A stretch of 57,067 nucleotides of DNA from contig CAJBBV010000173.1 of NCBI GenBank assembly GCA_903951405.1, positions 1-57,067 on the forward strand, read 5' to 3'. The DNA comes from an uncultured bacterium. Lineage in GTDB: Bacteria; Bacteroidota; Bacteroidia; Chitinophagales; Chitinophagaceae. The position numbers and the translations under genes were made by a program. Below, one piece after another: positions 33,626 through 43,776 of this stretch. Below the pieces are notes generated by a model, which saw only the letters and a list, made by a program, of their open reading frames with translations, was not told where the DNA came from and ran no database searches. Position 1 is the first letter of the stretch, and every line of letters starts with the position of its first letter.

Positions 33626-33796
33626 ATGAAAAAGTTATTTGTAATCTTAGCTATGGCTGCTCTTGCTTCTTGCGGAGGTTCTGATTCTGCTGCAACAACT
33701 GATACTGCTGCTGCTGCTGTTGACACAACTGTTGTTGCTGTTGACACAACTGCTGCTGTTGATACTGCTGCTGTTGATACTGCCGCTGCTAAGTAA
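33626..33796 (+). CDS. Small repetitive lipoprotein (below ORF-track cutoff)
   Basis: 56 aa. A signal peptide with lipobox LASC (Cys16) marks it as a lipoprotein. The mature 40 residues are almost only Ala, Val, Asp and Thr, with imperfect repeats of AVDTTA/AVDTA, so the mature peptide is short, acidic and without a recognisable fold. It is flanked by a candidate ECF promoter and a good terminator, which supports a real gene. It is not in the ORF list because of its length. Divergent from the sigma factor, of which it is a likely target. Confidence 0.75.
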   Translation: MKKLFVILAMAALASCGGSDSAATTDTAAAAVDTTVVAVDTTAAVDTAAVDTAAAK

Positions 33797-33824
33797 TCTT
33801 TTTTTATATGGCAAGCAATCGTTG

Positions 33825-33857
33825 AAGTCGTTCCGTCTCTACGGAATGACTTTTTTT
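33825..33857 (+). terminator. Intrinsic terminator of the small lipoprotein gene
   Basis: Stem AGTCGTTCCGT / ACGGAATGACT (one G-T wobble) with a CTCT loop, then seven T residues. Confidence 0.8.
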
Positions 33858-33914
33858 ATTTAATCTACTGATAATCAAGCAATTCCGCTAATCCCATTTC
33901 TCGGGCATATAGAT

Positions 33915-33935: not shown

Positions 33936-35687
33936 ATGAGTTTTGAAGAGTTAGGCATTGAAGAGATATTGCTCCAAGGCATTAAAGCACTTGGTTTTAC
34001 TGAACCTACACCAATACAGGAACAAGCGATACCTATTTTATTAAGTGGGACCAAAGATTTTGTGGGATTGGCTCAAACGGGCACCGGGAAAACAGCTGCA
34101 TTTGGACTTCCCCTGTTGCAATTAGTTGATTCTAAGGCTAAAACACCTGTAGCCCTGATGGTTTGTCCAACCCGTGAGTTGTGTATGCAAATCACCAAAG
34201 ATTTGATGAATTTTGGCCGGTATAAGAAAGGAACCAAAATGGTAGCGGTTTATGGTGGGGCCTCTATTTCACAGCAAATTCGTGATTTAAGGCAAGGCGC
34301 ACAAGTAGTGGTTGCTACACCAGGAAGGTTGATTGATTTGATCGAAAGGAAGGCGATTGACCTAGAAAATATTGAATATATTGTTTTAGATGAGGCTGAT
34401 GAGATGCTTAACATGGGATTCCGTGATGACATCGAATTTATCTTGAAAAATACTCCAAATAGGAAGAGTATTTGGTTATTCAGTGCTACTATGCCATCAG
34501 AAGTGAAGCAAGTGAGCAAACGCTACATGGATAAGCCCCATGAAATCACTATTGGCAAGATGAATGCGGCTAACGTGAATATTGACCATCAATATTATGT
34601 AACCTCAGGGGTTAATCGATATCAAACCCTAAAGCGAATCATTGATTTTAACCCAGGCATTTATGGGATTATTTTCACCAGGACAAAGGCTGATGCGCAA
34701 TCTATTACAGAATCACTTATTCGTGAAGGCTATGACATTGAAGCCCTTCATGGTGATTTAACCCAAGTTCAACGGGATAAAGTAATGGGTAGGTTTAGAG
34801 AAAAAAGTATTCAATTATTGATAGCTACTGATGTGGCAGCACGGGGAATTGATGTTAAAGATATCACACACGTTATTAATTATGAGCTCCCTGATGATGT
34901 AGAGGTATATACCCATAGAAGTGGCCGAACTGGTCGTGCAGGTAAGAATGGTGTTTGTGTTTCATTGGTTACATCTCGCGAACAATATAGGCTCAGGCAG
35001 ATCGAAAAATTAATTAACAATAGTTTGCACAAGATGGATATTCCATCAGGCAAAGATGTATGTCGTAAGCAGTTTTTCCATTTTATTGATAAGCTCCTCA
35101 AAGCTGATATTAGTCACGGTGAATATGAGACCTATATCCCTTTGTTGAAAGAAAAATTCGAGGATGTAACGAAAGAAGAGATTCTTCAACGTGTAGCCGC
35201 GCTTGAGTTTGATCGCTTCCTTCAGTATTATGAAAATGCTGCGGACCTCAATATGAGAGATGATAGGCGTTCAGAGAGGCAGTCTTCCTCTCGTGGCGAT
35301 TCTCGTGGAGATTCTCGGGGAGATTCTCGAGGAGACTCTCGCAATCAAGGTCGTTCGGCAGGGCGTAGCTCTTTTGGAAGAGAAGGTGGTTCTGAACGAA
35401 GAGATGGCGGATCAAGTGGGGCTGCAGGGGGCTATAAAAAACTATTTGTAAACTTAGGCACGAAAGATGGTTTTTATAAGGCTAGTTTTTTACAGTTTAT
35501 TTTAGACATGAGTGATCTCAGTAAGGATGTTTTGGGTAAGATCGACATGAAGGATATGAATAGCTGGGTAGAGATAGAAGGCGGCGCAGCAAATCAAATG
35601 ATTAAGTCACTTGATGGTAAAAAATTCAAGGGAAGAAGAATTAGGATGAATGATGCTGAAACAGGGGGCTCTAGAAATAATTATTAA
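33936..35687 (+). CDS. DEAD-box RNA helicase (DeaD/CsdA-like)
   Basis: 583 aa. Motifs in order: Q-motif region GFTEPTPIQEQAIP, AQTGTGKT (I), PTRELC (Ia), TPGR (Ib), DEADEM (II), SATM (III), ATDVAARGIDV (V) and HRSGRTGRAGKNG (VI). A low-complexity Arg/Ser/Gly stretch (about 445-495) leads to a C-terminal DbpA-type RNA-binding domain (LFVNLGTKDGFYKASFLQFIL). Roles likely include ribosome assembly and cold adaptation. The four 12-nt RGDS repeats lie in the linker. Stand-alone transcription unit. Confidence 0.93.
   Translation: MSFEELGIEEILLQGIKALGFTEPTPIQEQAIPILLSGTKDFVGLAQTGTGKTAAFGLPLLQLVDSKAKTPVALMVCPTRELCMQITKDLMNFGRYKKGTKMVAVYGGASISQQIRDLRQGAQVVVATPGRLIDLIERKAIDLENIEYIVLDEADEMLNMGFRDDIEFILKNTPNRKSIWLFSATMPSEVKQVSKRYMDKPHEITIGKMNAANVNIDHQYYVTSGVNRYQTLKRIIDFNPGIYGIIFTRTKADAQSITESLIREGYDIEALHGDLTQVQRDKVMGRFREKSIQLLIATDVAARGIDVKDITHVINYELPDDVEVYTHRSGRTGRAGKNGVCVSLVTSREQYRLRQIEKLINNSLHKMDIPSGKDVCRKQFFHFIDKLLKADISHGEYETYIPLLKEKFEDVTKEEILQRVAALEFDRFLQYYENAADLNMRDDRRSERQSSSRGDSRGDSRGDSRGDSRNQGRSAGRSSFGREGGSERRDGGSSGAAGGYKKLFVNLGTKDGFYKASFLQFILDMSDLSKDVLGKIDMKDMNSWVEIEGGAANQMIKSLDGKKFKGRRIRMNDAETGGSRNNY
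35292..35342 (+). repeat. Four 12-nt tandem repeats (RGDS) inside the DEAD-box gene
   Basis: Units of the form CGN-GGN-GAY-TCT repeat four times, encoding RGDSRGDSRGDSRGDSR. In-frame expansion or contraction by slippage would change only the basic linker length. Confidence 0.8.
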
Positions 35688-35692
35688 AAATA

Positions 35693-35723
35693 TTGTTTAA
35701 CTACATTCAGTTTCTTATATTTG
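35693..35723 (+). promoter_or_regulatory. Promoter of the aromatic amino acid operon leader
   Basis: TTG (35693-35695), 20 nt, TATATTTG (35716-35723) fits the Bacteroidota -33/-7 pattern. The leader-peptide ATG follows 4 nt later, so the transcript would be nearly leaderless. The second Met (35734) is an alternative start. Confidence 0.6.
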
Positions 35724-35727
35724 TTTC

Positions 35728-35799
35728 ATGAATATGCCAAAGACAGCCCGTTTTTATTTTTACTACTACTTTAGCGGTAGCACGGGATCCCTTTGTTGA
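35728..35799 (+). CDS. Phe/Tyr-rich leader peptide (attenuator sensor)
   Basis: 23 codons, not in the ORF track. After eight codons the peptide reads FYFYYYF (three Phe, four Tyr in a row), then a Ser/Gly-rich tail and TGA. Stalling at these codons when Phe-tRNA or Tyr-tRNA is scarce would report the products of the downstream pathway, as in pheL. The stop lies 31 nt before a strong terminator hairpin, and the peptide-coding RNA holds the antiterminator strands. Identity as a leader peptide is inferred from composition plus context, both strong. Confidence 0.85.
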   Translation: MNMPKTARFYFYYYFSGSTGSLC

Positions 35800-35860
35800 A
35801 CAAATAATAACAAGATATATCAACATAAGAATCCCGGTAACACTACCGGGATTTTTTTTT
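35747..35860 (+). promoter_or_regulatory. Phe/Tyr transcription attenuator (1:2, 2:3 and 3:4 structures)
   Basis: Competing pairings are visible by eye. 1:2 is CCCGT (35747-35751) with ACGGG (35782-35786), enclosing the Phe/Tyr codons. The antiterminator is nested: CGGTAG (35775-35780) with CTACCG (35843-35848), and CGGGAT (35783-35788) with ATCCCG (35831-35836). 3:4 is the terminator at 35830-35860. A ribosome stalled on the Phe/Tyr run leaves 35775 onward free and favours readthrough; one that reaches the stop codon covers these bases and permits termination. Confidence 0.8.
35830..35860 (+). terminator. Attenuator terminator hairpin before pheA
   Basis: AATCCCGGTA, loop ACAC, TACCGGGATT: a 10-bp perfect stem running straight into a T tract (35852-35860). 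It lies between the leader peptide and the first biosynthetic gene. Confidence 0.92.
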
Positions 35861-35876
35861 AAATAGTAAATGAACG

Positions 35877-36767
35877 ATGTCCGAAAAGAAAAAAAATAAA
35901 GGTCAAAAGCTAGAAGAGTCTACTATGTTGGCTACTTCCAAACCTATTGCCATCCAAGGCTATGAAGGGAGTTTTCATCAAGTAGCTGCTCGGAAGTTCT
36001 TTGGAAAAAAGGTTGAAATCCTTCCGTGCGCAACGTTCATCGATCTTATTCGGGATGCATCAGATTCTAAAAAAACGAGTGGCGGTATTATGGCGATTGA
36101 AAATTCCATCGCGGGTAGTATCCTCCCCAATTATAACTTATTGCAAAAGTCATCTCTTTTTGTAGCAGGTGAGGTCTACCTCCAAATCGATCAAAATTTA
36201 ATGGTGAACCCTGGCGTAAAGTTATCTGATATCAAAGAGGTTCATTCACATCCTATGGCGCTGCAACAATGCCTTGGTTTTTTAAACAAGTATCCATGGA
36301 AATTGATTGAGACTGATGATACGGCATTGAGTGCAAAGCATGTTCACCTCAAAAAGAGTAAGCATATTGCAGCAATTGCTAGTAAACTTGCTGCTGAGAT
36401 GTTTGATCTTGAATTGATTGCTCCTAAAATCAACGACGTAAAACACAATTATACTCGTTTCTTGGTTTTGCAACAGCATCCTTCTGTTGTTGAAGGTGCA
36501 AATAAGGCATCAATCAATTTTCATACAGATCATGAGAAAGGAAGTCTTGCAAAAGTACTTGCAATTATAGCTTCTCAAGATATTAACATCAGTAAGCTAC
36601 AATCGTTTCCCATCGCCGGCAGTCAATTTAAATATGGTTTTCATGCAGATCTTGAATTTGAATCGTTAAAGCAATTCAATTCACTTCTGAAAAAGTTGAC
36701 GGCCAAAACAAAGTACATGCGTGTGCTGGGTATTTATAAAAAAGGAAAATTCAATTCAGCCTCATGA
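35877..36767 (+). CDS. pheA: Prephenate dehydratase
   Basis: 296 aa; converts prephenate to phenylpyruvate. The catalytic PDT domain (about 24-205) shows IQGYEGSFHQVAARKFF, GIMAIENSIAGSI and the TRF-type motif NYTRFLVL. A C-terminal ACT domain (about 215-290, with SLAKVLAIIASQDINISKLQSFP) gives allosteric control by phenylalanine. No chorismate mutase domain is fused; mutase activity comes from the DAHP synthase fusion four genes on. First gene after the attenuator; its stop overlaps the aminotransferase start by 4 nt. Confidence 0.93.
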   Translation: MSEKKKNKGQKLEESTMLATSKPIAIQGYEGSFHQVAARKFFGKKVEILPCATFIDLIRDASDSKKTSGGIMAIENSIAGSILPNYNLLQKSSLFVAGEVYLQIDQNLMVNPGVKLSDIKEVHSHPMALQQCLGFLNKYPWKLIETDDTALSAKHVHLKKSKHIAAIASKLAAEMFDLELIAPKINDVKHNYTRFLVLQQHPSVVEGANKASINFHTDHEKGSLAKVLAIIASQDINISKLQSFPIAGSQFKYGFHADLEFESLKQFNSLLKKLTAKTKYMRVLGIYKKGKFNSAS

Positions 36768-37945
36768 TACCGGTATCATCTAGATTAAATGGAATTGGAG
36801 AATATTATTTCTCTACTAAGCTTCGAGAAATCGATGAGCTTAATAAGGCAGGGCATGCTGTTATTAATTTGGGTATTGGTAGTCCTGATCTCCCACCTCA
36901 CCCATCAGTTGTAGAAGCATTACACACGGAAGCCGCAAAACAAAACACACACGCATATCAATCCTATAAAGGGTCGCCAATATTTCGAAATGCAATTTCT
37001 GCGTGGTATAAAAAATGGTATAATGTTCTTGTGAATCCTGATACCGAGGTGCTTCCCTTAATAGGAAGTAAAGAAGGCATTATGCACATATGCATGACGT
37101 ATCTTCAAGATGGCGATGCTGCCTTAGTGCCAAACCCCGGTTATCCAACATATAGCAGTGCTGTCAAGCTTTCTGGGGGAACGGTACTTTCATATAGACT
37201 TGAGTCCCAAAATAATTGGCATCCCGACTTAGCTGTTTGGAAGAAAATGATTGATGAGTATAATTCATCTGCACAAGGTGTTGTGAAAATTATTTTTCTT
37301 AATTACCCTCATATGCCTACGGGGCAACTCCCCGATAAAAAATTATTGAGCGAAATCATTGCGTTTGCAAAGCAGGAAAACGTAATGATAGTACATGATA
37401 ATCCATACAGTTTTATTTTGAATGATTATCCTGCAAGTTTATTGGAGTTTGATGTGAATAAAGAAGTAGTTATCGAGCTCAATTCGTTGAGCAAATCTCA
37501 CAATATGGCCGGTTGGCGTGTAGGGATGATTGTTGCTTCTGCTGAACATATCAATGCCATCTTAAGATTTAAAAGCAATATGGATAGTGGCATGTTTTTA
37601 CCTGTTCAACTTGCAGCATCTAAAGCATTAGAGTTGGGTAAAGATTGGTTTGATGATATGAATCAGATTTACGCAACTAGAAAAAAGTTGGCCTGTGAGT
37701 TACTTGATTTACTTGATTGTGCTTATTCTAAAGATCAAGTTGGAATGTTTGTTTGGGCCGCCATTCCTAAGCATATTAAGTCGGGTTATGAGCTTAGTGA
37801 TAAAGTATTGAATGAGGCGCGTGTGTTCATCACGCCCGGAGGGATTTTTGGGGATGCAGGTGATGCATTTGTTCGGGTGAGTTTATGTAGCAAAGAAGAA
37901 GTTTTACAAGAAGCTATTAATAGAGTGAAGAAATTGAAACAATAG
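36764..37945 (+). CDS. Class I/II pyridoxal-phosphate aminotransferase (probable aromatic amino acid aminotransferase)
   Basis: 393 aa. GIGSPDLPPHPSVVEAL, GSKEGIMHI, NYPHMPTGQ, VHDNPYSF and the PLP-Lys motif SLSKSHNMAGWRVG belong to the aspartate/LL-diaminopimelate aminotransferase fold. Placement between pheA and tyrA suggests it transaminates phenylpyruvate and 4-hydroxyphenylpyruvate, or prephenate. Starts inside the pheA stop (ATGA), so it is translationally coupled. Confidence 0.85.
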   Translation: MIPVSSRLNGIGEYYFSTKLREIDELNKAGHAVINLGIGSPDLPPHPSVVEALHTEAAKQNTHAYQSYKGSPIFRNAISAWYKKWYNVLVNPDTEVLPLIGSKEGIMHICMTYLQDGDAALVPNPGYPTYSSAVKLSGGTVLSYRLESQNNWHPDLAVWKKMIDEYNSSAQGVVKIIFLNYPHMPTGQLPDKKLLSEIIAFAKQENVMIVHDNPYSFILNDYPASLLEFDVNKEVVIELNSLSKSHNMAGWRVGMIVASAEHINAILRFKSNMDSGMFLPVQLAASKALELGKDWFDDMNQIYATRKKLACELLDLLDCAYSKDQVGMFVWAAIPKHIKSGYELSDKVLNEARVFITPGGIFGDAGDAFVRVSLCSKEEVLQEAINRVKKLKQ

Positions 37946-38010
37946 AATACGAGTAATAGGCTGAACATACTTTTAATTAAACGCAAAGCAGGTTTTAAGT
38001 AGTTGAACAA

Positions 38011-38865
38011 ATGAATGTAAATAAAAAAAATATTGCCATAGTTGGAGTGGGGCTAATTGGCGGCTCACTTGCCCTTCAGTGTAAGAAGAAGGGCATATCC
38101 AATCATGTTGTTGGTATTGACAGTAATCCACTTCATGCAGAGCAAGCTCTTTCACTGCATCTTGTTGATGAGATGTTGAGTATGCAAGAGGCAGTCTCAA
38201 AGTCAGATGTTATCCTCGTTGCTATACCTGTTGACAGTATGGTTGCGCTGGTGCCTAAAATACTTGACTTAGTTGATCAACAACTAGTCATTGATCTAGG
38301 CTCTACAAAAAGCTTGTTGATTGATGCGGTGAGAGACCATCCAAAAAGAAGACAGTTTGTCGCTGCACATCCGATGTGGGGAACAGAATATAGTGGGCCT
38401 ACTGCAGCGGTAGAAGGTGCATTCGAAGATAAATCAGTGATTATTTGTGATGCTAAGGATAGTAGTGAAGAGGCCATTGAATATGTTAAATTCCTTTTCG
38501 GCAAGTTGAAGATGCGCATTTTTGAGATGGATGCCCATGATCACGATCTTCATGCTGCATATGTTAGTCATATCTCTCATATCACGTCATTTGCATTGGC
38601 TAATACAGTCCTTGAAAAGGAAAAAGAAGATAGTGCCATTTTTGAAATGGCTAGTGCTGGATTTGAAAGTACAGTAAGGTTGGCAAAGAGTAGCCCTGAT
38701 ATGTGGACACCGATTTTAAAGCAAAACAAGGATAATATCCTGGATGTATTGAATGAGCACATCATGCAGCTAAGAAAATTTAAATCTTGTTTAGAGAAAG
38801 AGAACTGGGATTATCTTCACGAGTTAATGGAAAAAGCAAATCAGATCCGTAGGATCATTCATTAG
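38011..38865 (+). CDS. tyrA: Prephenate (or arogenate) dehydrogenase
   Basis: 284 aa. The N-terminal NAD(P) loop is GVGLIGGSLALQC. AAHPMWGTEYSGP supplies the catalytic-His/substrate region (HPMxGxExSG), and HDHDLHAAYVSHISH is the conserved helix that closes the active site. It converts prephenate to 4-hydroxyphenylpyruvate (or arogenate to tyrosine). No ACT domain is present, so feedback may rest on DAHP synthase and the attenuator. 65 nt after the aminotransferase. Confidence 0.92.
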   Translation: MNVNKKNIAIVGVGLIGGSLALQCKKKGISNHVVGIDSNPLHAEQALSLHLVDEMLSMQEAVSKSDVILVAIPVDSMVALVPKILDLVDQQLVIDLGSTKSLLIDAVRDHPKRRQFVAAHPMWGTEYSGPTAAVEGAFEDKSVIICDAKDSSEEAIEYVKFLFGKLKMRIFEMDAHDHDLHAAYVSHISHITSFALANTVLEKEKEDSAIFEMASAGFESTVRLAKSSPDMWTPILKQNKDNILDVLNEHIMQLRKFKSCLEKENWDYLHELMEKANQIRRIIH

Positions 38866-38905: not shown

Positions 38906-39994
38906 ATGGAAACAACACAAGAAAGTCAACAATCAATTGTAAAAGCTGCTTGGAATAAACGTCCTCTTATTATTTCCGGCCCTTGCAGTGCAGAAACTGA
39001 AGAGCAGGTACTAGCCACTGCACAACGACTTGCCAATACAGGTAAAGTGGATATGTTGCGTGCAGGTATTTGGAAGCCAAGAACCAAGCCTGGCATGTTT
39101 GAAGGTATTGGGGCAAAAGGGTTGCCTTGGTTGCAGCAAGCAAAAAAACTCACAGGATTGCCTACAACTGTAGAAGTGGCAACGGGAAAGCAAGTTGAAG
39201 ACGCGCTCACATTTGACGTAGATGTTTTATGGGTTGGTGCTAGAACAACTGTGAATCCATTCAGCGTTCAAGAGGTAGCTGATGCACTTCGTGGTGTTGA
39301 TGTTCCTGTATTGATAAAAAATCCAATCAATCCTGATCTTGAATTATGGCAGGGTGCTGTTGAGCGTGTTGCACGTGCGGGCATAAAAGATATTGGACTT
39401 ATCCATCGTGGATTTTCTTCATATGGCAACACTGAATTTAGGAATGCTCCGATGTGGCATTTAGCGATTGAGATGAAACGCAGAATGCCTGGAACACCAA
39501 TCATTAATGACCCTTCACATATTTGTGGTCGAAGAGACATACTTCTCGCAACAGCTCAAAAAGCAATTGACCTGGACTTTGATGGTTTGATGATTGAAAG
39601 TCATATCGACCCAGATAATGCATGGAGTGATGCTAAGCAACAAATCACTCCTGAGCGTCTTGCAGAAATGTTAGATGAGATCGTATGGAGAAGAGAAGAT
39701 GTTTCATCAGAAACATTTCATATTGCACTTGATAAGTTGAGGGAACAAATCAATCATATCGACGATGAGTTGATGCAGTTGATTTCACAACGGATGCATA
39801 TCGCAGAAAAAATAGGCACTTACAAGAAAAATAATAATGTAACTATTTTACAAGCAAATCGTTGGAATGAAATTTTAGATAAAGCGGTAAAGAAGGCAGA
39901 TAAGCTTTCGCTTAGTGAGGAGTTTGTAACCCGTTACATGGATGCAATTCATATGGAAAGTATCAATAGGCAGAATAAAATCATGAACGACTAA
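38906..39994 (+). CDS. Bifunctional DAHP synthase / chorismate mutase type II
   Basis: 362 aa fusion. The N-terminal KDO8P-like DAHP synthase (about 18-255) begins IISGPCSAETEEQ, contains AGIWKPRTKPGMFEG and ends with NDPSHICGRRD and MIESHIDPDNA. The C-terminal chorismate mutase (about 268-355) reads LDKLREQINHIDDELMQLISQRM...IGTYKK. It joins the first committed step (DAHP) to the branch point (prephenate), a fusion common in Bacteroidota. The mutase domain often gives the synthase prephenate- or chorismate-sensitive control; which effector acts here is not shown. Confidence 0.93.
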   Translation: METTQESQQSIVKAAWNKRPLIISGPCSAETEEQVLATAQRLANTGKVDMLRAGIWKPRTKPGMFEGIGAKGLPWLQQAKKLTGLPTTVEVATGKQVEDALTFDVDVLWVGARTTVNPFSVQEVADALRGVDVPVLIKNPINPDLELWQGAVERVARAGIKDIGLIHRGFSSYGNTEFRNAPMWHLAIEMKRRMPGTPIINDPSHICGRRDILLATAQKAIDLDFDGLMIESHIDPDNAWSDAKQQITPERLAEMLDEIVWRREDVSSETFHIALDKLREQINHIDDELMQLISQRMHIAEKIGTYKKNNNVTILQANRWNEILDKAVKKADKLSLSEEFVTRYMDAIHMESINRQNKIMND

Positions 39995-40017: not shown

Positions 40018-40434
40018 ATGGTACAGGTTTTTTTATATGTGCACATCATTTGGTCAACTCGAAACAGGGAAAGTGTATTAACGAGGCCAGTAAGGGTTGT
40101 TCTATTTAGCCATTTAAAAAAACTAGCAGAGGAAAAAGGAATTCATTTATTGGAAGTGAATGGAGCCGAAGATCATGTTCATCTTTTATTGCAGTTGCAT
40201 CCTGCCCAGAATTTATCTCAGGTCATGAGGTTGTTGCGTTCTGAGTCTTCCGAATGGACAAACACCACTCAATTAATAAAGGGTGGGTTTGACTGGTCTG
40301 ATGAAATCATTGCTTATTCAGTGAGTCCGGGTTCACTTGCACAAGTGACATCCTTTATTGAAAGGCAAGAAGAGTATCATTTGACTAAGACGTTTCAAAC
40401 AGAAATCGAAGTTTTTTTAAAAACAGATAAGTAA
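40018..40434 (+). CDS. Y1 (IS200-like/REP-associated) transposase-fold protein lacking the catalytic Tyr
   Basis: 138 aa. The HUH motif is intact (EDHVHLLL, His53 and His55), and the family's VS-x-S and xIxxQ segments are readable (AYSVSPGSL, SFIERQEEYHLTKTF). The nucleophilic tyrosine of the YxxxQ motif is replaced by Phe113 (F-IER-Q117). The C-terminal tail of the family is absent. The gene sits 23 nt after the DAHP synthase stop and 4 nt before aroB, with no terminal hairpins or REP palindromes seen. It is therefore an operon member, probably domesticated as a nucleic-acid-binding protein. Function unknown. Confidence 0.8.
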   Translation: MVQVFLYVHIIWSTRNRESVLTRPVRVVLFSHLKKLAEEKGIHLLEVNGAEDHVHLLLQLHPAQNLSQVMRLLRSESSEWTNTTQLIKGGFDWSDEIIAYSVSPGSLAQVTSFIERQEEYHLTKTFQTEIEVFLKTDK

Positions 40435-40438
40435 TAGT

Positions 40439-41482
40439 ATGACGAGTATGAAAAAAATGCGTTTTCAATTTTCACAGAAAATAGTGGATTGCTACTTTGA
40501 TGCATCGTTCAAACGTCTTGAAGAGATTGTAAACAAAGAGAAGGCAATCATTATTACTGATGAAAATGTTTTTGTTGCGCATAAAAGTAAATTCAAGAAG
40601 TGGAATGTAATCACCTTGAAAGCTGGTGAGGAGTATAAGGTTCAGGCTACGGTGGACGCCGTCATTGCTCAGTTGATAGAATTTTCTGCAGATAGACAAA
40701 CGACATTAATTGGTATTGGAGGGGGAGTAATTACAGACCTTACCGGCTATATCGCTTCGGTATACATGAGGGGCATTGAGTTTGGTTTTGTGCCTACATC
40801 ATTATTAGCTATGGTAGATGCTTCTATTGGAGGTAAAAACGGTATCGATGTTGGCGAATATAAAAATATGGTGGGTATCATACGTCAACCCTCTTTCTTG
40901 TTTTATGATCTTGATTTCTTGAAAACATTACCAGATTCAGAATGGAGTAATGGGTTTGCTGAGATCATCAAGCATGCTTGTATATTGGATAGCAAAACGT
41001 TTTCATTGTTAGAGAAAAGCAATATTGCTAAAGTGAAGCGTGACAAATCCCTTCTTAGGGATATTATTCTGCGCAATGTAAAATTGAAAGTGGGTGTTGT
41101 TAAAGCGGATGAATTTGAAACAGGCAATAGAAAGTTGCTCAATTTCGGTCATACCCTTGGACATGCCTTGGAAACTCAATATGAATTGACGCATGGTCAA
41201 GCTGTTTCATTAGGAATGATTTTCGCTTCATGGCTTTCAGAAAAAGCAGTGGGACTAAAAGGGGCAGATAGAATAGAAAAAGTATTGATAGAATATGGAT
41301 TACCGACCAGAGGAAAATTTGATGTAAAAAAAGTGTATAATGTCTTGAAGATGGATAAGAAGCGTGTGAACAAAGACATGAGCTATATTTTATTGCAAAA
41401 AATAGGAACTGGTTTAATACAAAAGATTTCTGTTGATGCACTGCATGAACATTTAGTTGAGTTTAATAACATGATTAAGTAA
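40439..41482 (+). CDS. aroB: 3-Dehydroquinate synthase
   Basis: 347 aa; second step of the shikimate pathway. GIGGGVITDLTGYIASVYMRGI holds the NAD/metal region, VPTSLLAMVDASIGGKNGID is the strongly conserved core, EIIKHACI and NFGHTLGHALE give the zinc ligands. N-terminus slightly short for the family. Cotranscribed with the Y1-like gene (4-nt gap) and aroA (8-nt gap). Confidence 0.95.
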   Translation: MTSMKKMRFQFSQKIVDCYFDASFKRLEEIVNKEKAIIITDENVFVAHKSKFKKWNVITLKAGEEYKVQATVDAVIAQLIEFSADRQTTLIGIGGGVITDLTGYIASVYMRGIEFGFVPTSLLAMVDASIGGKNGIDVGEYKNMVGIIRQPSFLFYDLDFLKTLPDSEWSNGFAEIIKHACILDSKTFSLLEKSNIAKVKRDKSLLRDIILRNVKLKVGVVKADEFETGNRKLLNFGHTLGHALETQYELTHGQAVSLGMIFASWLSEKAVGLKGADRIEKVLIEYGLPTRGKFDVKKVYNVLKMDKKRVNKDMSYILLQKIGTGLIQKISVDALHEHLVEFNNMIK

Positions 41483-41490
41483 TAAGTAAA

Positions 41491-42771
41491 ATGAAGGCAA
41501 TAGTTCATCCATCTGTATTGCATGGGAATATTAGTGCGCCAAGATCTAAAAGTGATATGCAGCGCGCTTGTGCCGCTGCATTGCTTCACGTTGGGAAAAC
41601 ATTGATATATACTCCAGGTAATTCAAATGATGATCTTGCAGCAATAGATGTGATTCAAAAACTTGGGGCAGTAATTATTGAGCATACAGATCATCTTGAA
41701 ATATCAAGTGTAGGTGTTATGCCCGTTAATGATACTGTATTTTGTGGTGAAAGTGGATTGGGAATAAGAATGTTCACTCCCATTGCTTCAATAAGTAGTC
41801 AGCAACTTACGTTGACTGGTTCAGGATCATTAATGAATCGACCAATGCATTTCTTTGATGAGATATTTCCAAAATTGGGTATTACTATTTCGTCTAACAA
41901 TGGAAAGCTTCCTATTCAGATTAAGGGGCCGTTGGTGCCTTCTACTATTGAGGTTGACGGGAGTTTGAGTTCTCAGTTTTTAACTGGACTTTTATTCGCT
42001 TTTTCAGCTTCAAATGCATCTGACGTTACCATAAAAGTAAAAGACTTAAAAAGTAGGCCATATATTGATATGACATTACAAGTGATTAAGGCATTTGGGA
42101 TGAAGCTTCCTATAGTCGATTCCTATGAGACGTTTTCATTTGGTCCTGCAACAACAATTTCTTCAACAGATACTATTCAGTATACCGTTGAGGGTGATTG
42201 GAGTGGAGCATCGTTTCTATTTGTGGCAGGGGCAATTTCTGCTGAGGTTGTTATTGAAGGAATGAATCCTGATTCTGTTCAAGCAGATAAGCAAATACTA
42301 AAGGCAATACAATCCTGTGGCGCACACTTGATTTATAATGATGGGCGATATGTGGTTTCTCCGGGTGAACTTGTTGCATTTGAATTTGATGCAACAGAAT
42401 GTCCTGATTTATTTCCACCATTGGTTTCGTTGGCTGCCTATTGCAAAGGCATAACAAAAATTAAGGGTGCTAAGAGATTAACACATAAAGAAAGCGATAG
42501 GGCCTTAACACTTCAGGATGTCTTTGGTAAAATGGGCATAAAAATTGACTTGGACGATGATGTCATGTATGTTCATGGTGGCAGCGTTTTGAATACAGCT
42601 GAGGTTCATTCTCATCATGATCATCGAATTGCCATGGCTGCTGCGGTTGCTGCATTGTGTGCAGATGGACCTGTGATTATAAACGATGCGGAAGCTATCA
42701 ATAAATCGTATCCTGATTTTTATCATCATATGATTTCACTCGGCGCTAAAATTACTTTAGAAACGAATTAA
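41491..42771 (+). CDS. aroA: 3-Phosphoshikimate 1-carboxyvinyltransferase (EPSP synthase)
   Basis: 426 aa. Seen: SAPRSKSDMQRACAAALL, GESGLGIRMFTP, LTGSGSLMNRPM, the middle LTGLLFA/SRPYID region and the C-terminal DHRIAMAAAVAAL with KSYPDFY. Catalyses PEP addition to shikimate-3-phosphate. A typical length and all substrate-binding blocks are present. Located 8 nt after aroB and 9 nt before aroC. Confidence 0.95.
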   Translation: MKAIVHPSVLHGNISAPRSKSDMQRACAAALLHVGKTLIYTPGNSNDDLAAIDVIQKLGAVIIEHTDHLEISSVGVMPVNDTVFCGESGLGIRMFTPIASISSQQLTLTGSGSLMNRPMHFFDEIFPKLGITISSNNGKLPIQIKGPLVPSTIEVDGSLSSQFLTGLLFAFSASNASDVTIKVKDLKSRPYIDMTLQVIKAFGMKLPIVDSYETFSFGPATTISSTDTIQYTVEGDWSGASFLFVAGAISAEVVIEGMNPDSVQADKQILKAIQSCGAHLIYNDGRYVVSPGELVAFEFDATECPDLFPPLVSLAAYCKGITKIKGAKRLTHKESDRALTLQDVFGKMGIKIDLDDDVMYVHGGSVLNTAEVHSHHDHRIAMAAAVAALCADGPVIINDAEAINKSYPDFYHHMISLGAKITLETN

Positions 42772-42780
42772 ATAATAGTC

Positions 42781-43776
42781 ATGAACCATTTCGGAAAAAT
42801 TTTTTCAGTATCTATTTTTGGTGAATCACATGGAGAAGGTTTAGGCGTAGTGATTGATGGTTGTCCTGCTGGTATGCCATTAGCAGTAGAAGATTTTATT
42901 GTGGATACAGAAAGAAGAAAAGGCGGTATACAAAAAGGGACAACGCCAAGACAAGAAGAAGATTTACCGATATTTAAAAGTGGCGTATTTAATGGTAAAA
43001 CTACGGGTGCTCCATTGATGTTACTTTTTGAAAATAAAAATACGCGATCTGGTGATTATGAGAAACAGCGTGCTGTTCCAAGGCCAGGGCATGCTGATTT
43101 TGTTGCCAACCGAAAATTTGGAGGGTTTGAAGATTTTAGAGGTGGTGGGCATTTTAGTGGACGACTTACACTTTGCCTTGTAGCGGCTGGTGTGGTAGCT
43201 AAAAAAATATTGAAAGGAATAACAGTTATTTCGGAAATCGTTTCGATAGGTGGTGAGTCTTCAGTTGAACTTGGATTACAGAAAGCGATAGATCAAAAGG
43301 ATTCTGTTGGTGGTATCGTGGAGTGTAAAGTGAATGGATTGCCGTTGGGTTTAGGTGAGCCATTTTTTGATTCTGCAGAGTCGCTCATTTCACATGCTGT
43401 ATTTGCTATCCCAGCGGTTCGAGGCATAGAATTCGGTACAGGATTCAACGCTGCTTCTATGTTTGGAGTAGATCATAATGATGCAATAGAAAATAAAGAT
43501 GGTAAAACAACTACAAACCATGCAGGTGGAATTATAGGGGGCATTACCAACGGTAATGAGGTTGTTTTTAGAATTGCCATTAAGCCAACTTCTTCTACTC
43601 CCAAAGAACAACATACATACAATTGGGAAACCGATGCCATGGAAAACTTTTCAGTGCGAGGAAGGCATGATTTATGCATTGCGTTAAGAGTTCCACCAGT
43701 ACTTGAAGCGGTTACGGCATTTGTATTTGCTGACCTCATGTTGCGGTCGCAACATATAAAACCCGTATATTCATAA
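42781..43776 (+). CDS. aroC: Chorismate synthase
   Basis: 331 aa; reduced-FMN-dependent last step to chorismate. GESHGEGLGVVIDGCPAG at the N-terminus, RPGHADFVANRKF and DFRGGGHFSGRLT are the family signatures. Somewhat shorter than the 350-360 aa of many homologues, lacking C-terminal extension only. Ninth element of the operon counting the leader. Confidence 0.95.
   Translation: MNHFGKIFSVSIFGESHGEGLGVVIDGCPAGMPLAVEDFIVDTERRKGGIQKGTTPRQEEDLPIFKSGVFNGKTTGAPLMLLFENKNTRSGDYEKQRAVPRPGHADFVANRKFGGFEDFRGGGHFSGRLTLCLVAAGVVAKKILKGITVISEIVSIGGESSVELGLQKAIDQKDSVGGIVECKVNGLPLGLGEPFFDSAESLISHAVFAIPAVRGIEFGTGFNAASMFGVDHNDAIENKDGKTTTNHAGGIIGGITNGNEVVFRIAIKPTSSTPKEQHTYNWETDAMENFSVRGRHDLCIALRVPPVLEAVTAFVFADLMLRSQHIKPVYS

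Follow-up and report, generated by a model that had tools for sequence, protein, structure and literature searches.

A transposase-derived gene has long been fixed in the aromatic amino acid operon of one bacterial family, where it has apparently been turned to another use. With a probability of roughly two in three, its product is to be understood as a domesticated Y1 protein that serves this operon by a kind of binding which depends on the metal site but not on catalysis. The gene lies in a 57,067-nt stretch of DNA, referred to here as the window, in which the gene, the surrounding operon and its attenuator are located on the forward strand.

The gene (40018-40434) starts with an ATG codon and codes for a protein of 138 amino acids. 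The core of the protein matches PF01797 (Y1_Tnp) with 82.5 bits against a cut-off of 23, and it carries the metal ligands of the HUH motif (H53-V54-H55, 40174-40182) as well as Q117 (40366-40368), the third metal ligand of class-1 Y1 proteins (PMC6006769). Codon 113 (40354-40356), the position of the nucleophilic Tyr in other Y1 proteins, reads TTT, and the Y motif is accordingly F113-I-E-R-Q117. The original prediction of a Y1-like protein with an intact HUH motif and a Phe in place of the catalytic Tyr was thus borne out. When the protein is aligned by phmmer with the ISDra2 transposase of known structure, F113 coincides with the catalytic position, and the chain that scores highest is in fact 2xo6, the engineered ISDra2 Y132F mutant. 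The AlphaFold2 model, for which 16 orthologues served as input, has a pLDDT of 91.9 and a pTM of 0.86, its closest structural matches being the TnpA proteins of ISDra2 and IS608 (2xma, 2xm3, 2xo6). Since F113 was seen again in independent assemblies (G064, G036 and, from another metagenome, L031), it is not a sequencing slip.

According to Pfam, the surrounding operon consists of the genes for prephenate dehydratase, an aminotransferase and prephenate dehydrogenase (35877-38865; PF00800, PF00155, PF02153/PF20463), followed by a DAHP synthase fused to chorismate mutase (38906-39994; PF00793 and PF01817), the Y1 gene, aroB coding for 3-dehydroquinate synthase (40439-41482; PF01761/PF24621), and finally aroA (EPSP synthase) and aroC (chorismate synthase; 41491-43776; PF00275, PF01264), with synteny further supporting the assignment of the two direct neighbours. 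The reported gaps of 23 nt to the stop of the DAHP synthase gene at 39994 and of 4 nt to the aroB ATG at 40439 (alternative ATGs at 40448 and 40457) proved correct, as did the reported lack of transposon ends, no IS-type subterminal hairpins being found around the gene in the window. In the 2.46-Mb genome to which the window belongs this gene is the only PF01797 match, and a 681-nt stretch comprising the gene and its flanks occurs just once.

With respect to its distribution, full-length orthologues (n = 60, one per genome) occupy the identical site between the DAHP synthase and aroB genes in 13 genera of what is apparently the family Chitinophagaceae. A profile built from 16 orthologues and run on genomes of the order (299) and of the family (399) separated these aro-linked copies, which score at least 164 bits and without exception lie between DAHP synthase and aroB, from other Y1 proteins, which score at most 133 bits and of which none among those examined is aro-linked. 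Carriers make up 46 of the 399 family genomes and 13 of 104 genera, with a single copy each time, and in a class-wide search of 395 genomes only two matches above the threshold came from outside the family, neither of them aro-linked. The search for orthologues at the same locus therefore showed the gene to be present in relatives, and the absence from all close relatives that would mark a random recent insertion was not observed.

Within the genus of the window, 20 of 41 genomes carry the Y1 gene in full length between DAHP synthase and aroB, including one (G033) in which the two halves of the locus reside on separate contigs. In 15 others the site is empty, with DAHP synthase adjoining aroB at a spacing of 2-5 nt where the junction could be read; of the remainder, one has a Y1 gene cut by the contig end, in one the contig does not reach the site, and four gave no DAHP synthase match. 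The gene is hence dispensable, and as PF01797 is missing from the whole assembly in the 14 empty-site genomes examined for it, it was lost and not moved. The empty-site genomes are small, with sizes of 1.4-2.9 Mb (G001, G002, G004, G006, G009, G011-G014, G016, G018, G022, G025, G027, G061), which may suggest that a dispensable gene was shed in the course of genome streamlining. When 21 non-carriers from other genera, in which DAHP synthase is followed by AroB, were included in the tree, presence and absence of the gene required eight changes. One insertion followed by losses, and possibly by some exchange of the operon, explains the distribution as well as the tree data. A comparison of loci L091 (G003) and L093 (G019) further revealed a local recombination tract, the middle of the Y1 gene being 77-92% identical and its flanks mostly 95-100%.

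Compared with 76 other Y1 proteins, the aro-linked proteins form a single clade (SH-aLRT 100), and their pairwise distances are correlated with those of DAHP synthase plus AroB (Mantel test, Spearman 0.38, with none of 500 permutations reaching as high a value). In close pairs dN/dS ranges from 0.026 to 0.149, the low values that had been looked for as a sign of purifying selection, and is often above that of the neighbouring enzyme genes. Pairs of Phe-bearing copies (G000/G064/G036 and G215/G499/G563) are constrained no less than Tyr-bearing pairs. The possibility that the gene acts as a mere translational spacer is ruled out by these ratios. A single copy, a conserved position, vertical descent and purifying selection, i.e., all the properties by which exapted transposases are recognised, were therefore found together, and in combination with monophyly and the absence of mobility they strongly support the exaptation originally proposed.

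The argument from which this proposal had started, namely the loss of the Tyr, has to be corrected. Among the 60 orthologues position 113 is occupied by Tyr in 44 and by Phe in 16, with no other residue, so that the change is not fixed as the original prediction had considered; at the same time, the 44 Tyr-bearing copies reside at the same site, are equally immobile, and none of them looks like a mobile element. Domestication thus preceded the change from Tyr to Phe, which is a later and repeated event; that it marked or caused domestication is ruled out. Parsimony requires seven switches between Tyr and Phe on the tree of DAHP synthase plus AroB and likewise seven on a Y1 tree made without column 113 (bootstrap range 6-7), where at least five are forced by well-supported branches; on a larger but less resolved Y1 tree five are needed. 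In contrast, position 113 is Tyr in all of 79 distinct Y1 proteins without aro linkage, nearly all of which come from the same order and which show the HH signature of TnpA subclass 1.2 wherever it could be aligned. Invariant in all 60 orthologues are H9, G49, H53, H55, W93, P104, Q117, H121 and E129. As the HUH residues and Q117 are thus kept throughout while position 113 is either Tyr or Phe, the predicted fold and the metal site are retained and the nucleophile is dispensable. Tyr120, seven residues on, was considered as a general substitute nucleophile and ruled out, as G535 combines F113 with H120.

Without the Tyr no phosphotyrosine intermediate can be formed, and hence cutting and rejoining of single-stranded DNA is not to be expected. 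In line with this, TnpA-REP proteins engineered to carry Phe for Tyr fail to cleave (PMC8266576), whereas a DNA complex of the ISDra2 Y132F mutant has been solved (2xo6). By analogy with these mutants, the Phe forms should be capable of binding but not of cutting. Tyr- and Phe-bearing lineages would then share a function independent of catalysis, i.e., binding that needs the metal site, and this binding would belong to the workings of the aromatic operon. Because the metal site is kept absolutely whereas the nucleophile was lost repeatedly, the aro-linked family sets the two components of the HUH active site apart from each other, and its natural Tyr/Phe pairs offer themselves for testing how HUH proteins act without catalysis. 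The location within a shikimate pathway operon, moreover, makes the question amenable to experiments in culturable relatives.

As to what is bound, nucleic acid of the protein's own operon is the leading candidate, if at somewhat less than even odds: a hairpin, single-stranded RNA or single-stranded DNA might be recognised, by which expression of aroB, aroA and aroC would be tuned or the transcript be protected. The surface of the protein, however, has departed from the DNA-binding transposase type, and a nucleic-acid regulator can therefore not be accepted as settled. The cores of the aro-linked proteins have a median pI of 6.2 and a median net charge of -2, compared to 8.7 and +2 in other Y1 proteins, values which stem from sequences related by descent, so that the p value of the comparison overstates how independent the data are; the contrast persists inside three genomes having both kinds. 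Positions 90, 111 and 123 have lost their basic residues, and positions 94 and 112, which lie beside the conserved W and the Tyr/Phe, respectively, are mostly acidic. This acidic shift at positions 90, 94, 111, 112 and 123, together with the pI of 6.2, argues against an ordinary nucleic-acid-binding surface, and as indirect evidence the loss of net positive charge somewhat weakens the idea of a DNA or RNA regulator. That the operon has a leader-peptide attenuator irrespective of the Y1 gene also counts to some degree against such a regulator. The favoured explanation further has against it that the gene is dispensable and that a candidate binding site could not be located, the gaps on either side of the gene in the window measuring 23 and 4 nt and the hairpins close to it in other genera being dispersed repeats or specific to a lineage.

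The acidic shift lends some weight to a second, less probable explanation, according to which the protein has ceased to act on nucleic acids altogether and works either as a small metal-binding accessory of the DAHP synthase-chorismate mutase or of AroB, or as a sensor using its HUH-Q site for a phosphorylated intermediate of the pathway. Both of these enzymes are metal-dependent. Besides the lost net positive charge and the missing basic residues near the active site, the strict placement between the genes for the first and second steps of the shikimate pathway is in favour of this explanation, and so are conserved positions specific to the aro-linked group, e.g., P104, V28, K35, N65 and Q68. 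On the other hand, H9, G49, W93, H121 and E129, which are shared with active transposases, are invariant, as would fit an ancestral nucleic-acid pocket still in use. It is thus conceivable, at odds of about one in three or slightly below, that an HUH transposase fold was turned into an effector which serves an operon of primary metabolism without catalysis but in dependence on its metal site, and which might bind a pathway protein or phosphorylated intermediate and not nucleic acid. If true, such a Tyr-independent use of the HUH site is one for which no description was found.

Known domesticated Y1 transposases, as far as we are aware, keep the nucleophile and are thought to process single-stranded DNA. 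A corresponding function, similar to that of TnpA-REP (RAYT) proteins, might be assumed for the Tyr-bearing lineages, with the Phe-bearing ones being inactivated copies, but this appears rather improbable. Tyr is indeed present in 44 of the 60 copies and HUH-Q in all of them, and just upstream of the Y1 gene in genus g180 (e.g., L152 and L151) the interval to DAHP synthase holds palindromes of GGTCAATGGTGAATGGT-like units. Yet these are dispersed genome-wide, each genome having some 10 to 100 exact copies, their presence before the gene varies (G638 has none there), and there are none at the window locus, and as REP-type cognate repeats they were therefore rejected. In the interval between DAHP synthase and the Y1 gene, L143 (G445) and L145 (G527) contain a single-copy hairpin, GGCCTGCCGC...GCGGCAGGCC, with a compensatory change in its stem; it is found in these two Tyr-bearing genomes but not in three relatives from their genus that bear Phe, which also fits single-stranded DNA processing. 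There is little space for flanking repeats in carriers from the window's genus. Constraint on the Phe copies is as strong as on the Tyr copies, HUH-Q being intact, and whole Phe clades have diversified. The probability left by own-operon nucleic acid, a protein or metabolite and single-stranded DNA processing falls to some other function. A recently inserted IS200-type element decaying after an inactivating point mutation, or an IS fossil, is consistent with the PF01797 membership but virtually ruled out by occurrence at the same site in 13 genera, a dN/dS of 0.03-0.15, the lack of ends and of a second copy, and a frame that is open throughout.

Returning to the domesticated Y1 protein, its closest known counterpart is TnpA Y1 subclass 1.2 (PMC6006769), likewise comprising short class-1 PF01797 proteins (Y---Q) of low copy number without IS ends in Bacteroidetes, and the nearest other Y1 proteins carry the subclass signature Y---Q--HH. 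In contrast to that subclass, the aro-linked proteins hold a single fixed place on the chromosome, within a metabolic operon, have Phe for Tyr in 16 of 60 copies, replace the first H of HH by Y, F or W in 47 of 60, and show W-E/S/D instead of W-Q as well as an acidic instead of a basic character; the window protein, low in copy and without IS ends as it is, reads F---Q--YH. RAYTs (PMC2817692, PMC8266576) are also single-copy, immobile Y1 proteins retained by the host, but they belong to class 2 (Y---NP), keep the Tyr and are flanked by cognate REPs, whereas the aro-linked proteins belong to class 1 (Y/F---Q), have a fixed operon position and can dispense with the Tyr; the window locus has neither a Y---NP motif nor cognate REP flanks. 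With TnpA of IS200/IS605 elements (ISDra2, IS608) the fold and the metal-site residues are shared, but the aro-linked gene is immobile, present as a single copy at one site in all carriers, devoid of LE/RE subterminal hairpins, and in part bears a natural Phe where a transposase needs Tyr. Given F113, the window protein is a PF01797 member by descent and not a Y1 transposase by mechanism, and the group is best described as a domesticated, IS200-like Y1 protein near TnpA subclass 1.2. No earlier description of the gene was found in the open-access literature. Sequences without the core motifs have been taken as non-functional by Quentin et al. 2018 (PMC6006769); Tyr-less PF01797 proteins, so easily set aside as dead, may nevertheless be under strong selection.

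Upstream of the operon, a gene for a DbpA-type DEAD-box RNA helicase (33936-35687) is linked to it across most of the family, its position being either ahead of the prephenate dehydratase gene or in the interval from prephenate dehydrogenase to DAHP synthase. A specific association with the Y1 gene was rejected, since the helicase gene lies beside prephenate dehydratase in 13 of 20 non-carriers and beside DAHP synthase in two more. A Leu-rich open reading frame of 66 amino acids with a TTG start (33663-33863) consists of low-complexity sequence and is probably not a gene.

Ahead of prephenate dehydratase, a leader peptide ORF (MNMPKTARFYFYYYFSGSTGSLC, 35728-35799), which resembles aromatic-rich leaders in other genomes of the family, is followed by a terminator hairpin (GAATCCCGGTAACACTACCGGGATTTTTTTTT, 35829-35860; fold z -3.5), the layout of a Phe/Tyr transcription attenuator. 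An Rfam search of the window gave no family match, including for this element. The attenuator was found in genomes of the genus both with and without the Y1 gene, and in all 20 genomes sampled from other genera of the family, which lack the Y1 gene, similar aromatic-rich leaders stand ahead of the operon; the Y1 protein therefore neither replaces nor defines attenuation. Within the attenuator region (35716-35860) the leader contains the run RFYFYYYF, and a promoter-like motif, TATATTTG, lies upstream.
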